Part shown: one piece after another, positions 2,357 through 24,324 of the stretch
How positions within the stretch are numbered: position 1 is the stretch's first letter
Layout of the letters: every line of letters starts with the position of its first letter
NCBI RefSeq assembly: GCF_019402665.1
Contig: NZ_VSST01000024.1
Coordinates: forward strand, 1-64,000
Source of the DNA: Bradyrhizobium canariense
Lineage (GTDB): Bacteria; Pseudomonadota; Alphaproteobacteria; Rhizobiales; Xanthobacteraceae
DNA length: 64,000 nucleotides
Direction: 5' to 3'
Program-made: the position numbers and the translations under genes
The notes under the pieces: model-generated
Told to the model about the DNA's origin: nothing
Seen by the model: only the letters and a program-made list of their open reading frames with translations
The model's database searches: none

Positions 2357-3379
2357 TCAGCGGTAAATATCGGTCCAGAGCTCGGCGGCATCCGGCTCGG
2401 GATCATGCTGGGCGAAATCGGCGGACGCATTGACGATGTCGCGCACCTCGGCGTCGATCGCCTTCAGATCCTGCTCGCTGACCTTGGCGGCCAACAGGCG
2501 GTTGCGCACCTGCTCGATCGGATCCTGGTCGTGGCGGACTTTCTCGACCTCCTCGCGCGTTCTGTACTTTGCGGGATCGGACATCGAGTGGCCGCGATAA
2601 CGGTAGGTCTGCATCTCCAGGATGAAGGGTCCCTTGCCGGCGCGGCACCAGGCCGCAGCTTCGTCGCCGGCGGCCTTGACGGCACGGACGTCCATGCCGT
2701 CGACCTGCTGGCCGGGAATGTTGAAGGAGGCGCCGCGCTTGGAGAAATCCTGCTGCGCCGAGGCGCGCGAGACCGAAGTGCCCATGGCGTAGCGGTTGTT
2801 CTCGATGACGTAGATCACCGGCAGCTTCCAGAGCTCCGCCATGTTGAAGCTCTCATAGACCTGGCCCTGGTTGGCCGCACCGTCGCCGAAATAGGTGACG
2901 CTGACATTGTCGTTGTCGCGATAGTGATTGGCGAAAGCGAGCCCGGTGCCGAGCGAGACCTGGGCGCCGACGATGCCGTGGCCGCCGTAAAAGTGCTTCT
3001 CCTTGCTGAACATGTGCATGGAGCCGCCCTTGCCCTTGGAATAGCCGCCGCGACGGCCCGTGAGCTCGGCCATGACGCCGTTGGCCTCCATGCCGGTGGC
3101 GAGCATATGGCCGTGATCGCGATAGCCGGTGATGACCTGATCGCCCGGCTTCAGGGCCATCTGCATCCCGACCACCACGGCCTCCTGGCCGATATAAAGG
3201 TGGCAGAAGCCGCCGATCGCGCCCATGCCGTAGAGCTGGCCGGCCTTTTCCTCGAACCGCCGGATCAGGAGCATGTCGCGGAGCGCCTTGAGCTCCTGCT
3301 CTCTGGTGAATTCCGGGGGCGAACCGCCGTCGGTCTTGTCCTGTGCAGTGCTTGCGGCGGCTTTCTTGGGTGCGGCCAT
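2357..3379 (-). CDS. pdhA: Pyruvate dehydrogenase E1 component subunit alpha
   Basis: A 340-residue E1-alpha. The thiamine-diphosphate motif is visible ([17 protein letters not shown], ending in the ENNRYAMGT region), and the phosphorylation-loop-like [15 protein letters not shown] follows. An Ala/Lys-rich N-terminus of about 20 residues precedes the domain. It is the first gene of the minus-strand operon pdhA-pdhB-DUF5076-deaminase-pdhC. The 267 bp upstream (3380-3646) must hold the promoter, but I could not pick out a convincing -35/-10 pair. No strong Shine-Dalgarno precedes the ATG at 3379. Confidence 0.96.
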
Positions 3380-3607
3380 GGGAATTCCGGGTCAGAGAAA
3401 ACTTCAGCCCTCTCTAACCCAAGTCAAACGCCCTTGGAAAGCACCGCGGCGGCATGGCACGACTTTCATTATGCCGCACTGCAACGTGATCGTAATATTG
3501 CAAAATCTTTGACGCGGATCGGGCAACAAATCGACACGGTCGCCGCACGCGCAGATTCGTGGCCGCGTCAAGCAACGTTGAGCCAACGCGGTCCCGACAT
3601 TTGGAAC

Positions 3608-20985: not shown

Positions 20986-21312
20986 CTACTTCACCGCCGA
21001 GAAGGCGGTCGGCGCCAGGATCTGGCTGACGATGTTGCCGACAATCTGGCCGTCCGCCTCGCTCTCGGCGCGCCCTTTCATCCAGTCCGGATCGGTCATG
21101 AAGGCGGCCCACTTCTTCTCGCGCTCGGCGAGCGACTCCCAGGCCAGGAAATAGGTCAGCTCCTGGTTGGATTCACCGATGAGCGTCGTGAAAAACCCGG
21201 CCTGCCTGATGCCGTGCTTTTCCCACACCTTCAGCGTGACGGTCTCGAACCGCTTGAGAAGTGCCGGCAGGCGGCCGGGCACGCAGCGATAGATGCGCAT
21301 TTCGTAGATCAT
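20986..21312 (-). CDS. NIPSNAP family protein
   Basis: A 108-residue ferredoxin-like dimeric alpha-beta barrel protein of the NIPSNAP family: MIYEMRIYRCVPGRLPALL at the N-terminus, a central FLAWESLAEREKKWAAF and a C-terminal ILAPTAFS. Members are small cytoplasmic proteins of unclear function, sometimes acting in aromatic or redox metabolism. It stands alone on the minus strand between kdsA and the two-component genes, with GAGGAAC before the ATG at 21312. Confidence 0.85.
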   Translation of the reverse strand: MIYEMRIYRCVPGRLPALLKRFETVTLKVWEKHGIRQAGFFTTLIGESNQELTYFLAWESLAEREKKWAAFMTDPDWMKGRAESEADGQIVGNIVSQILAPTAFSAVK

Positions 21313-21449: not shown

Positions 21450-21467
21450 CGCAATGCTGCCGCAATG
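21450..21467 (+). promoter_or_regulatory. Direct repeat CGCAATG-N4-CGCAATG upstream of the response regulator
   Basis: Two exact CGCAATG copies with an 11-bp period end 43 bp before the response-regulator start. An 11-bp tandem repeat is the usual binding geometry of OmpR/PhoB-family dimers. The same element with one spacer difference recurs at 23577-23594, so this is a likely autoregulatory box. Confidence 0.65.
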
Positions 21468-21510
21468 ATACGGCCGCTAGATTGGCGTGATTGAGGTTGA
21501 GGTGCGGATC

Positions 21511-22185
21511 ATGCGGATTTTGCTCGTCGAGGACGAGGCCGAAATGGCCGACGCGCTGGCGTCGGCGCTGAAGCGCTACGATATGGTGGTCGACCACGCC
21601 CCAACGCTCGCCGAGGCGGAAGAGGCCATTTCTGCCGACGTCCACGCCGCCGTCCTGCTCGATCGCCAGCTTCCCGATGGCGACGGTCTCACCCTGATCC
21701 CGAAACTGCGGGCGCGCGCCGACGGCGTGCCGATCATCGTGTTGACGGCGCGCGGCGAACTCGCCGATCGGGTCGCCGGACTGGACTGCGGGGCGGATGA
21801 TTATCTGTCAAAGCCGTTCGCGGTGGAGGAATTATTGGCGCGGCTGCGCGCCGTGCTGCGCCGGCCCGCCGGGATGCAGCCCGACATCATGCACGCCGGC
21901 CGCCTCGCTTTCGATTTCGGCCATCGCGAGGCAAGCATCGACGGGGCTCCGCTCGAGCTGCCACGGCGCGAGCTCCTCGTGCTGGAAGCCCTGGTCCGCC
22001 GCATGGGCCGGACCGTGCTGCGCTCCGCGCTGGAAGAAGCCGTCTACAGTTTCGACGACGAGATCCAGTCGAACGCGCTCGATACGCACGTGTCGCGCCT
22101 GCGCCGCAAACTCTCGGAAGCCGATGCGCGCGTGGAGATCCACGGCATCCGCGGCGTCGGCTATCTCTTGAAAAAGCTGCCATGA
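21511..22185 (+). CDS. OmpR-family response regulator
   Basis: A 224-residue regulator. The receiver domain covers about 1-115, with phosphoacceptor Asp in AAVLLDRQLPDGDG and Lys in ADDYLSKPFAVEELLARLRAVL. The winged-helix output domain covers about 125-220 (LELPRRELLVLEALVRRMGRT, SNALDTHVSRLRRKLSEA, IRGVGYLLKK). The ATG at 21511 with GAGGTG upstream is preferred over 21487. Its stop overlaps the start of the histidine kinase by 4 bp. It probably binds the CGCAATG repeats before itself and before the methyltransferase gene. Confidence 0.94.
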   Translation: MRILLVEDEAEMADALASALKRYDMVVDHAPTLAEAEEAISADVHAAVLLDRQLPDGDGLTLIPKLRARADGVPIIVLTARGELADRVAGLDCGADDYLSKPFAVEELLARLRAVLRRPAGMQPDIMHAGRLAFDFGHREASIDGAPLELPRRELLVLEALVRRMGRTVLRSALEEAVYSFDDEIQSNALDTHVSRLRRKLSEADARVEIHGIRGVGYLLKKLP

Positions 22186-23558
22186 GCAAGCACCACGATC
22201 CCTATTGCCTGCGCTCGCGACTGAGCTGGCGCCTGCTGTCGCTCCAGGCGGTGCTGCTCACGGCGCTCGTTGCCGTCGTCGTCGGGGCATTGAGCGCGTC
22301 CGGGTTCGTGATCGCCGGGCGCGACGAAGATCGCGTGATCGACATCGTCCAGCGCGCGCTCGCGCGCGATGCGCAAGGCAACCTGGCCCTGCGATCGACG
22401 ACCGAGCTGAAACAATTGCGCAGCGAGACCCCCGATCTCTGGTTCCTGGTCCGCGACAGGCAGGGACATTCGCTCAGCGAAGGCGCCGTGCCGGCCGAGT
22501 TCGCCGCGATCGGCAGCGGCCTCGACCAGATCAGCCAGGCGCGGCTCGGCTGGCAGCTGCTCGAGGACGATCCGCGCAAGCCCCCGGCGCGGCTGAAGCG
22601 GGTCGATACCGACGCCGGCAATGTGCAAATCATCACGGCGACGCAAGGCAGGCTCACCGGCGCCAAGGCGTTGTTCATGACGTCGCTTGCATTGCTCGGC
22701 ATGGCCCTGCCCGGACTGCTCCTCATGGGTACGGCGACCTTCATTGCCACACCGATGATCGTGCGGCGCGCCTTTAGGGGGATCGATGCGACGGCGGACC
22801 AGGCGCGGCGCATCGACATCCATCAACGCGGCGCGCGGCTGTCGCTGGACCGGATTCCGCTGGAGGTCATGCCGCTCGTGACCGCGGTCAACGACGCGCT
22901 GGCGCGGCTAGACCAGGGCTATGCCCGCCACAAGCGCTTCGTCGCCGATGCCGCACACGAGTTGCGCACGCCAATTGCAATCCTGAACACGCGGCTGGAG
23001 TCGCTTCCGGCGGGGCCGGAGAAGACCCGGTTGCTGGAGGATTCCGCGCGGCTGGCTACGCTTGCCGAGCAACTGCTCGACATTCAGCGCCTCGACCGCT
23101 GCGGTCATCCCTTCACGCGCGTCGACCTCGTCGCAATCGCGCAAAGTGCGGCCGCAGATCTCGCGCCGCTGGCCATTGCCGCCGGCTACGAGCTGGCGCT
23201 CGATGCCCCCTCCACGCCGGTCGAAACGATCGGCGATGCGGCGGCGCTGGAGCGCGCGCTGACCAACCTCGTGCAGAATGCGATCCAGCACGGCCCTCGC
23301 CGCGGCACCATCGGCATTCGTGTCACGAGGCCCGCGAGCATCGAGGTCACGGACGAAGGCGCCGGCATTCCGGCCGATCAGCGCGAACAGATATTCGAGC
23401 CATTCTATCGGCTGACACCGCTCGATCGCGGTGCCGGCCTCGGCCTCAACATGGTGCGCGAGATCGTGCTCCTGCATGGCGGCCACATCTCGGTCGCGGA
23501 CGGAGCGATCGGCGGCGCGTGCTTCAGGATTTCACTGCCGCCAGTCCGGGAGAATTGA
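22182..23558 (+). CDS. Two-component sensor histidine kinase
   Basis: A 458-residue membrane kinase. Membrane segments lie at about 19-42 and 166-190 with a periplasmic loop of about 120 residues between them. The phosphorylated His is in the H-box FVADAAHELRTPIAILNTRL (about 250-270). The ATP-binding motifs are NLVQNAIQHGP, VTDEGAGIP and GAGLGLNMVREI. The periplasmic region is of the 2CSK/TctE-like type and no ligand can be named. It forms an operon with the response regulator (ATGA overlap). Confidence 0.94.
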   Translation: MSKHHDPYCLRSRLSWRLLSLQAVLLTALVAVVVGALSASGFVIAGRDEDRVIDIVQRALARDAQGNLALRSTTELKQLRSETPDLWFLVRDRQGHSLSEGAVPAEFAAIGSGLDQISQARLGWQLLEDDPRKPPARLKRVDTDAGNVQIITATQGRLTGAKALFMTSLALLGMALPGLLLMGTATFIATPMIVRRAFRGIDATADQARRIDIHQRGARLSLDRIPLEVMPLVTAVNDALARLDQGYARHKRFVADAAHELRTPIAILNTRLESLPAGPEKTRLLEDSARLATLAEQLLDIQRLDRCGHPFTRVDLVAIAQSAAADLAPLAIAAGYELALDAPSTPVETIGDAAALERALTNLVQNAIQHGPRRGTIGIRVTRPASIEVTDEGAGIPADQREQIFEPFYRLTPLDRGAGLGLNMVREIVLLHGGHISVADGAIGGACFRISLPPVREN

Positions 23559-23576
23559 CGCAATCGGCAGGCGGCA

Positions 23577-23594
23577 CGCAATGCTGTCGCAATG
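23577..23594 (+). promoter_or_regulatory. Second CGCAATG-N4-CGCAATG direct repeat, upstream of the methyltransferase
   Basis: It is identical in both 7-bp repeats and differs only in the spacer (CTGT against CTGC at 21457-21460). It starts 18 bp after the kinase stop and ends 67 bp before the methyltransferase start, in the same orientation. This marks the methyltransferase gene as a likely direct target of the adjacent response regulator. Confidence 0.65.
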
Positions 23595-23661
23595 CACGCA
23601 AGCGATTGTTCGGCCGCCTCACCTCTGACCTGCGAGGCGCAACCAAGATGCCGGAGTGCGC

Positions 23662-24324
23662 ATGCCCAACGATTTCCTCTCGTTCTTCCTGTCATGGATG
23701 TCAGCCCCGCGTCGCGTCGGCGCGATCGCGCCGTCAGGCGCGGCGCTGGCCGATCTCATCACCCGCGAGATCACCGCATCGACCGGCCCTGTTCTCGAGC
23801 TCGGCCCCGGCACCGGCGCGTTCACCTACAAGCTGCTCAAACGCGGCGTGCGCCAGCAGGACCTCACGCTGGTCGAATACGGCTCCGACTTCATGAAGCT
23901 GCTACAGATGCGTTTCCCCAACGCGCGCGTCTTGTGGATGGATGCGGGGCGGCTGGCAGCGGAACGCCTCTATGACGGCGCACCCGTCGGCGCGGTCGTG
24001 AGCGGCCTGCCGCTGCTCAACATGTCGACGCGCAAGGTCGTCTCGATCGTCGGTGGCGCGTTCAGTCATGTCCGCCCCGGCGGCGCGTTCTACCAGTTCA
24101 CCTATGGCATGAGTTGCCCGATCCCGCGGCCCGTGCTCGACCGGCTAGGCTTGCGCGCAAAGCTGGTGGATCGTGCCCTGCTGAACGTGCCGCCGGCCGC
24201 CGTCTACAAGCTGACGCGACGACCGCAGATGAAGCTCGTCACGGGATCGCTTGCGCCTGATACGTCAATGCCGGCTGCGCCGGAGCCGATGCTTCTCGCA
24301 CGTGACTGCACCGCCACGCCCTGA
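23662..24324 (+). CDS. SAM-dependent methyltransferase, phospholipid N-methyltransferase-like
   Basis: A 220-residue class I methyltransferase. An amphipathic N-terminus (FLSFFLSWMSAPRRVGAIAPSG) precedes the SAM-binding motif VLELGPGTGAFTYKLL (about 46-61). VVSGLPLLNMSTRKV and FYQFTYGMSCPIPRPVLD follow, both typical of the rhizobial PmtA-like group that methylates phosphatidylethanolamine at the membrane. The ATG at 23662 has CCGGAG five bases upstream. The regulatory repeat before it ties it to the two-component system. True PmtA activity would need testing. Confidence 0.82.
   Translation: MPNDFLSFFLSWMSAPRRVGAIAPSGAALADLITREITASTGPVLELGPGTGAFTYKLLKRGVRQQDLTLVEYGSDFMKLLQMRFPNARVLWMDAGRLAAERLYDGAPVGAVVSGLPLLNMSTRKVVSIVGGAFSHVRPGGAFYQFTYGMSCPIPRPVLDRLGLRAKLVDRALLNVPPAAVYKLTRRPQMKLVTGSLAPDTSMPAAPEPMLLARDCTATP

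Follow-up and report, generated by a model that had tools for sequence, protein, structure and literature searches.

Does the two-component system encoded in this DNA of Bradyrhizobium canariense control its own synthesis and, directly, that of a membrane lipid methyltransferase? The question is raised by a direct repeat that occurs twice in the window, the whole stretch of 64,000 nucleotides that was analyzed, once before the gene of a response regulator (RR) and again before that of a phospholipid N-methyltransferase (MT), with the gene of a histidine kinase (HK) between them (Table 1). The order in the window is a kdsA-like and a NIPSNAP-family gene on the minus strand, box 1, the RR and HK genes, box 2, the MT gene, and a pyrG-like gene on the minus strand; kdsA and pyrG are presumptive names, assigned from the translations. 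Of the 60 orthologous stretches that were fetched, 58 also contain the NIPSNAP-family gene (20986-21312), which is divergent from the RR gene.

Table 1. Positions of the genes, boxes, and promoter elements in the window
Feature	Positions	Strand	Description
Box 1, CGCAATG-CTGC-CGCAATG	21450..21467	+	Before RR; exact match; direct repeat with 11-bp period
-10-like element TAGATT	21478..21483	+	10 nt after box 1; putative
Response regulator (RR), OmpR/PhoB family, 224 aa	21511..22185	+	Response_reg and Trans_reg_C domains
Histidine kinase (HK), membrane sensor, 458 aa	22182..23558	+	TM ~19-46, periplasmic ~46-162, TM ~163-190, HisKA, HATPase_c
Box 2, CGCAATG-CTGT-CGCAATG	23577..23594	+	Before MT; exact match; 11-bp period
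Weak -10-like element GATTGT	23604..23609	+	9 nt after box 2; putative
S-type phospholipid N-methyltransferase (MT), 220 aa	23662..24324	+	PmtA model, AtPmtA structure match

The RR combines a receiver domain and a winged-helix Trans_reg_C domain with the phospho-acceptor aspartate and the lysine of the OmpR/PhoB family. Its most likely start is the ATG at 21511, preceded by an SD-like GAGGTG (21499-21504), rather than the GTG at 21487 that opens the longest reading frame. The best-scoring NCBIfam models were PmrA, TctD, RppA, and QseB, and the score of 189 bits against the PmrA equivalog model NF007928 lies below its cut-off of 330, which leaves the RR outside that equivalog. Its second-ranked match in the PDB (E 1.1e-38) was BasR/PmrA of Escherichia coli, a chain of entry 8jo2; a limited open-access search found no paper on the PmrA activation complex. 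Residues D8, D51, T79, and K101 and ten residues of N188-R199 were conserved at 99% or more among 91 RRs, as was H259 among 88 HKs.

The sequence-only reading had called the third gene phospholipid-methyltransferase-like, and this was borne out. With the ATG at 23662 kept as its start, the MT matched the PmtA model and the crystal structure of AtPmtA (9ko3, E 8e-20), and it has the features of S-type phospholipid N-methyltransferases, namely the SAM motif E/DXGXGXG, present as ELGPGTG at 46-52, and the groove tyrosine, Y148. Its score of 98 bits against the PmtA equivalog model NF045881 is below the cut-off of 250 and places it outside that equivalog. Residues E46, G48, G50, G52, and Y148 were each conserved in at least 99% of 98 MTs. 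The groove tyrosine of AtPmtA is given as Y161 in the available text of PMC12139422, which also reports that BdPmtA, with a Phe at the position of AtPmtA Ile159, makes mainly MMPE; read from the alignment to 9ko3, the MT has F146 at this position.

By position, size, and synteny, the MT is indirectly identified as the orthologue of Bradyrhizobium diazoefficiens PmtX4 (BAC50069). Genome G418, taken as that of USDA110, encodes S-type Pmts at three places, 0.728, 5.323, and 8.967 Mb, and the accessible part of PMC11409717 lists the accessions BAC45946 for PmtA, BAC50069 for PmtX4, and BAC53431 for PmtX3. The position ratio of the middle Pmt is 0.558 on the chromosome versus 0.551 in the accession numbers; the assignment is based on chromosome order, size, and neighboring genes. 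The candidates in G418 for PmtX4 and PmtX3 have 220 and 192 aa, in agreement with the ~25 and ~21 kDa published in the sections at hand of PMC8590670. The middle Pmt matched the MT of the window at 89%, with RR and HK at 89 and 88%, respectively, both boxes exact, and the same neighbors. When expressed in E. coli, pmtX4 brought MMPE to 65% and DMPE to 15% of phospholipids, as stated in the same portion of PMC8590670. According to the part of PMC11409717 cited above, the extra B. diazoefficiens Pmts, PmtX4 included, are active in E. coli and silent under standard laboratory conditions, one of them being raised in a pmtA mutant, and phosphatidylcholine is required for effective symbiosis. What is accessible of this literature on PmtX4, PmtX3, and PmtA deals with activity and non-expression and names no dedicated regulator.

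We then assessed the repeat itself. Both copies are exact matches to CGCAATG-N4-CGCAATG in the same orientation with an 11-bp period, and their coordinates and strand agreed with those first described. Between box and start codon lie 43 nt for the RR (box 1) and 67 nt for the MT (box 2); since the HK frame ends at 23558, box 2 sits in the 103-bp gap between the HK and MT genes. By chance, 0.01 exact copies are expected per window, and two copies occurred in none of 100 dinucleotide shuffles. The own genome (8.56 Mb in 154 contigs) contains exactly two exact copies, precisely boxes 1 and 2, against a genome-wide expectation between 0.06, from base composition, and 0.45, from a first-order Markov model, both calculated from the composition of the window. 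At one mismatch there were 4 further sites in the genome versus 1 for a reversed-pattern control, and all 4 fell inside frames that run 316-626 codons from stop to stop. When two mismatches were allowed, the window held 3 sites versus 1.6 expected, which is chance level; the significance of the box therefore lies in its exactness, placement, and conservation.

To follow the module through the genus, we searched 146 genomes with the MT. A match at 1e-20 was found in 144 of them, many merely distant relatives with ~40-44% identity; 80 loci were fetched, of which 60 were orthologous modules, making a 61-locus set with the window. This set includes L048 (RR and HK frames broken), L085 (RR without a full open frame), and L041 (MT without a full open frame); the breaks in L048 (genome G078) are perhaps sequencing errors, because the pyrG frame is broken there too. 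The RR, HK, and MT genes lay on one strand in the same order in all 60 fetched modules, and pyrG was present in 57 of these stretches. When the best box within 200 nt upstream was taken, it had no more than one mismatch before both RR and MT in 61 of 61 loci: 41 exact and 20 with one mismatch on the RR side, 55 exact and 6 with one mismatch on the MT side. The controls gave 3-7 mismatches for one shuffle per upstream region and 3-6 for the reversed pattern. Information per base on the RR and MT sides was 1.91 and 1.96 bits in the half-sites, 1.61 and 1.57 bits in the spacer, and 0.42 and 0.31 bits in the upstream flank. Box and start were 42-46 nt apart for 57 of the 61 RRs and 60-71 nt apart for every one of the 61 MTs. 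In L087, L090, L091, and L094 the box lay 104-155 nt from the RR start with one mismatch each, which resembles insertions between box and gene.

Most of the 58 named loci are from Bradyrhizobium. The module and its boxes also occur in Afipia (exact in L195 and L196; 2 and 1 mismatches in L193) and, in another family, in Nitratireductor soli (L198, one mismatch in each box). The module of L189 is cut by the contig end, and RR, HK, and box were all absent from the stretch of L200.

A scan of the 146 genomes for the exact pattern matched 75 genomes at 121 sites, compared with 7 for the reversed control. By manual count, 101 of the 121 sites were at the module (two of them, in G057, assigned through their spacing to a partial MT alone), 1 was beside a truncated Pmt (G016), and 19 were elsewhere. 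Ten off-module sites, exact or with one mismatch (L003-L006, L118, L125, L132, L135, L141, and L142), fell within stop-to-stop frames of 132-626 codons, which are not proven coding because such frames are frequent by chance in DNA of 64% GC, those of L118, L141, and L142 being short (132, 153, and 181 codons). Nine fetched one-mismatch sites (L286-L294) were also within open frames, and the off-module exact and one-mismatch sites that were inspected included no convincing third promoter of a wider regulon in the genus. One exact repeat with a GTCT spacer, which recurs in several genomes (L131:1501-1518 and relatives), was rejected; it lies inside a gene that we take from its sequence to be AraC-type and resembles a coding coincidence. 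The CTCG-spacer site of L132 is in a frame that is presumably sugar-kinase-like, again judged from its sequence.

The surroundings of the boxes suggest how they could act. Downstream of the RR-side box, T, A, A, and A stood at offsets 28, 29, 31, and 32 from the box start in 93, 97, 87, and 85% of 60 rows, the promoter of the window itself deviating from this consensus at offset 32. On the MT side, where the -10-like element is weak, offset 28 was A in 100% and offset 32 was T in 75% of the 61 loci. Because the box ends 9-10 nt upstream of a conserved -10-like element, it takes the -35 position; no separate -35 stands out, since the upstream flanks outside the box are poorly conserved. A box over the -35 region, as here, is the placement found at PhoB- and PmrA-activated promoters, and the PmrA box is likewise a direct repeat with an 11-bp period at -35, with the half-site CTTAAT in place of the GCAATG seen here. 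The spacing between box and -10-like element thus suggests direct activation.

If the box is the operator of this RR, it should accompany the regulator beyond the main set. RR orthologues were found in 31 of 248 genomes of the family at 1e-75 and in 23 of 347 genomes of the order at 1e-80, and part of these were fetched: 20 regions out of 40 RR places in the family, and 20 of 25 RR places, in 18 regions, in the order outside the family. In all, 49 distinct RRs outside the 61 were examined, with L193, L194, and L195 left out of the count as lying on the same contigs as L238, L235, and L236. Within 110 nt upstream, 9, 15, 14, and 9 of the 49 had a box with 0, 1, 2, and 3 mismatches, and 2 (L316 and L325), with five mismatches, had none. 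A box with at most three mismatches hence preceded 47 of 49 further RRs, versus 0.32 expected from shuffles and 0 for the reversed pattern. Two doubts voiced with the sequence-only reading, that the repeat might be common at random or not conserved upstream of orthologues, therefore do not hold, the former by the genome-wide and shuffle counts and the latter by the 61 loci and the 49 further RRs.

The MT side was more variable. Beyond the main set, 19 tandem loci were scored, counting L099, whose contig stops before the RR, and leaving out L097, which has no RR in its stretch and five mismatches. Twelve of the 19 had an MT-side box with 0-1 mismatch, three had one with 2-3, and four had one with 4. 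Members of the B1 tandem lineage have a degraded MT-side box, with 3 mismatches (L241 and L243) or 4 (L245, L248, L249, and L252), and the tandem loci L314 and L326 have it at 3 mismatches. Where RR and MT are divergent, the box in the shared gap faced the RR in 7 of 7 loci with 1-3 mismatches, and five more divergent loci (L312, L319, L320, L323, and L327) had a box with 2-3 mismatches. An alignment of nine divergent gaps also showed a weaker MT-side repeat. Eight MT paralogues of a lineage with no RR in the fetched 4.9 kb lacked the box (at least five mismatches). The MT-side values of L103, one of these eight, and of L234 came from separate scans. Boxes thus accompany the RR in most loci, even where the methyltransferase is divergent or missing.

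In a tree of 39 of 101 MT sequences, thinned for redundancy and with order-level MTs left out, the regulator-linked Pmts formed one clade (31 of 39 rows, support 95/99). Within this clade, no RR stood beside L097, L099, L112, and L285; the RR-side box has been kept in L112 and L285 and is missing, along with the RR, from L097. In L285, from genome G418, a PmtX3-like gene (2581-3159, 3408-3490) has the RR-side box in its divergent gap with one mismatch and an apparent RR remnant of a start and about seven codons, and neither RR nor HK adjoins it; RR and HK are intact at the corresponding place in its relatives L105, L107, and L113.

Taken together, the rarity and conservation of the box and its linkage to the RR make it very probable that the RR autoregulates and directly controls pmtX4, so that RR and HK would form a two-component system that activates its own synthesis and is dedicated to the methylation of membrane lipids; the original prediction of autoregulation and direct control through an OmpR/PhoB-type box is strengthened accordingly. 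In the mechanism that we infer, including its binding, activation, and signal, the membrane HK would sense an envelope signal and phosphorylate the RR, two subunits of which would bind head-to-tail to YGCAATG-N4-YGCAATG at the -35 position and bring RNA polymerase to the promoters of the RR-HK operon and of pmtX4. PmtX4 would then convert phosphatidylethanolamine (PE) to its mono- and dimethyl forms. Transcription of the MT gene may also come from the upstream operon. With a conserved, probably dedicated regulator and a mapped candidate operator, the timing of PmtX4 use becomes directly testable.

The RR could also bind both boxes as a repressor, with kinase signaling then freeing pmtX4 and the operon from repression. 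A protein that covers a -35 region can obstruct polymerase, and a gene held in check would suit the silence of pmtX4 in laboratory culture, as described in the text at hand of PMC11409717. We nevertheless regard this as unlikely, and activation as the more likely mode, because no -35 element apart from the box stands out in the poorly conserved flanks and the box ends 9-10 nt before the -10-like element, just as in promoters of the PhoB/PmrA type that are activated.

Conservation of a sequence does not by itself reveal which protein binds it, and the RR-side box persists in L112 and L285 with no RR next to it, so that an unlinked regulator might bind the boxes and control both the two-component system and pmtX4. 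We find this very improbable, given that the box accompanies the RR in 47 of 49 further cases, including loci in which the Pmt is absent or divergent, that the eight Pmt paralogues without an RR are also without a box, and that its geometry is of the OmpR-family type. A coincidence of coding or repeat-derived sequence, or a recent duplication of one promoter region, could be suspected from the two 18-mers, which differ at a single spacer base (CTGC versus CTGT), and is scarcely credible: both boxes lie in non-coding gaps, their flanks appear unrelated, most of the species listed with exact matches share the CTGC/CTGT difference, and in the 61 loci the boxes do not vary as freely as the flanks do.

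The dedicated, positively autoregulated circuit that we favor has relatives among known systems. The sequence-only reading knew of no such circuit, and this needs qualification: the type is not wholly new, because Streptomyces is known to have a PE methyltransferase with its own dedicated two-component system, whereas for rhizobia the portion of the open-access literature available yielded neither a two-component system for a Pmt nor the box, and earlier mention in subscription papers is possible. As far as the accessible text of PMC5408092 goes, CinKR of Streptomyces cinnamoneus controls the PE methyltransferase gene of its own cluster, cinorf10, whose activity depends on cinKR and on induction by duramycin and whose product is monomethyl-PE. 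There, as here, a two-component system is clustered with a PE methyltransferase gene; unlike the present module, CinKR-Cinorf10 belongs to an actinobacterial lantibiotic cluster, no CinR box is named in that text, and the two were compared by description rather than by protein sequence. ExoS/ChvI of Sinorhizobium meliloti, likewise a two-component system, is linked to the state of phosphatidylcholine and activated by phosphatidylcholine loss; it controls exopolysaccharide and motility, with no Pmt control reported in the part of PMC8343143 at hand. PmrAB (BasRS) and PhoPQ of enterobacteria resemble the module in that the best NCBIfam score of the RR is to PmrA and the output alters membrane lipids, with lipid A genes as targets rather than a phospholipid methyltransferase. 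The locus tags blr4802-blr4804, bll4800, bll4801, and bll4805 appeared in no open-access paper that we found.

Pmt is not the sole output of this RR across the order, because some RR loci (L242, L251, L310, L311, L315-L317, L321, and L322) have no Pmt beside them. In some other genera, the gene after RR and HK encodes a patatin-like phospholipase (L310, 5751-7342; L311, 1637-3215) or an outer-membrane beta-barrel (L313, 6884-7673; L315, 6727-7512). Each of these genes has a box to itself, with 2 mismatches in L310, 1 in L311, 1 in L313, and 2 in L315. Beside the RR-HK pair of L316 (2927-3551), an exact box overlaps the start of a frame of 206 codons without a known family, and the RR box is absent; L321 has a two-mismatch box before a 293-codon frame of no known family. 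No box with two mismatches or fewer was found with the GH10 hydrolase gene that follows the HK in L242, the short-chain dehydrogenase gene in the same place in L317, or the beta-barrel gene of L251. The box is thus a handle for finding outputs of the RR family across the order. One possible, if doubtful, broader reading is that this RR family is an inducible envelope-defense switch with an exchangeable output (Pmt, patatin-like phospholipase, or beta-barrel), usually with a regulator box and a target box; in Bradyrhizobium, methylation would mask PE against PE-binding or cationic peptides, once these reach the membrane, as a counterpart of CinKR-Cinorf10 immunity. If true, this would account for the silence of pmtX4 in laboratory culture.

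Finally, we turned to the sensor of the HK. Pfam had no family for this region of the window's HK, and a Foldseek search with the sensor model found nothing that reached E 0.001, the best match, at E 0.06, not being PhoQ. The N-terminus was modeled (195 aa, 47 sequences) with a pLDDT of 71 and a pTM of 0.53. Among the top Foldseek chains, the periplasmic model aligned best to the PhoQ sensor 3bq8 (Z 9.4; 105 residues at rmsd 3.5); PhoQ accounted for all of the top six rows, at Z 9.4-7.8, and the next were at 7.6 or less, Z of 7-8 being common for models without a clear match. The model thus tentatively suggests a periplasmic domain resembling that of PhoQ, which would be a further likeness to PhoPQ and is at most a hint of an envelope signal.
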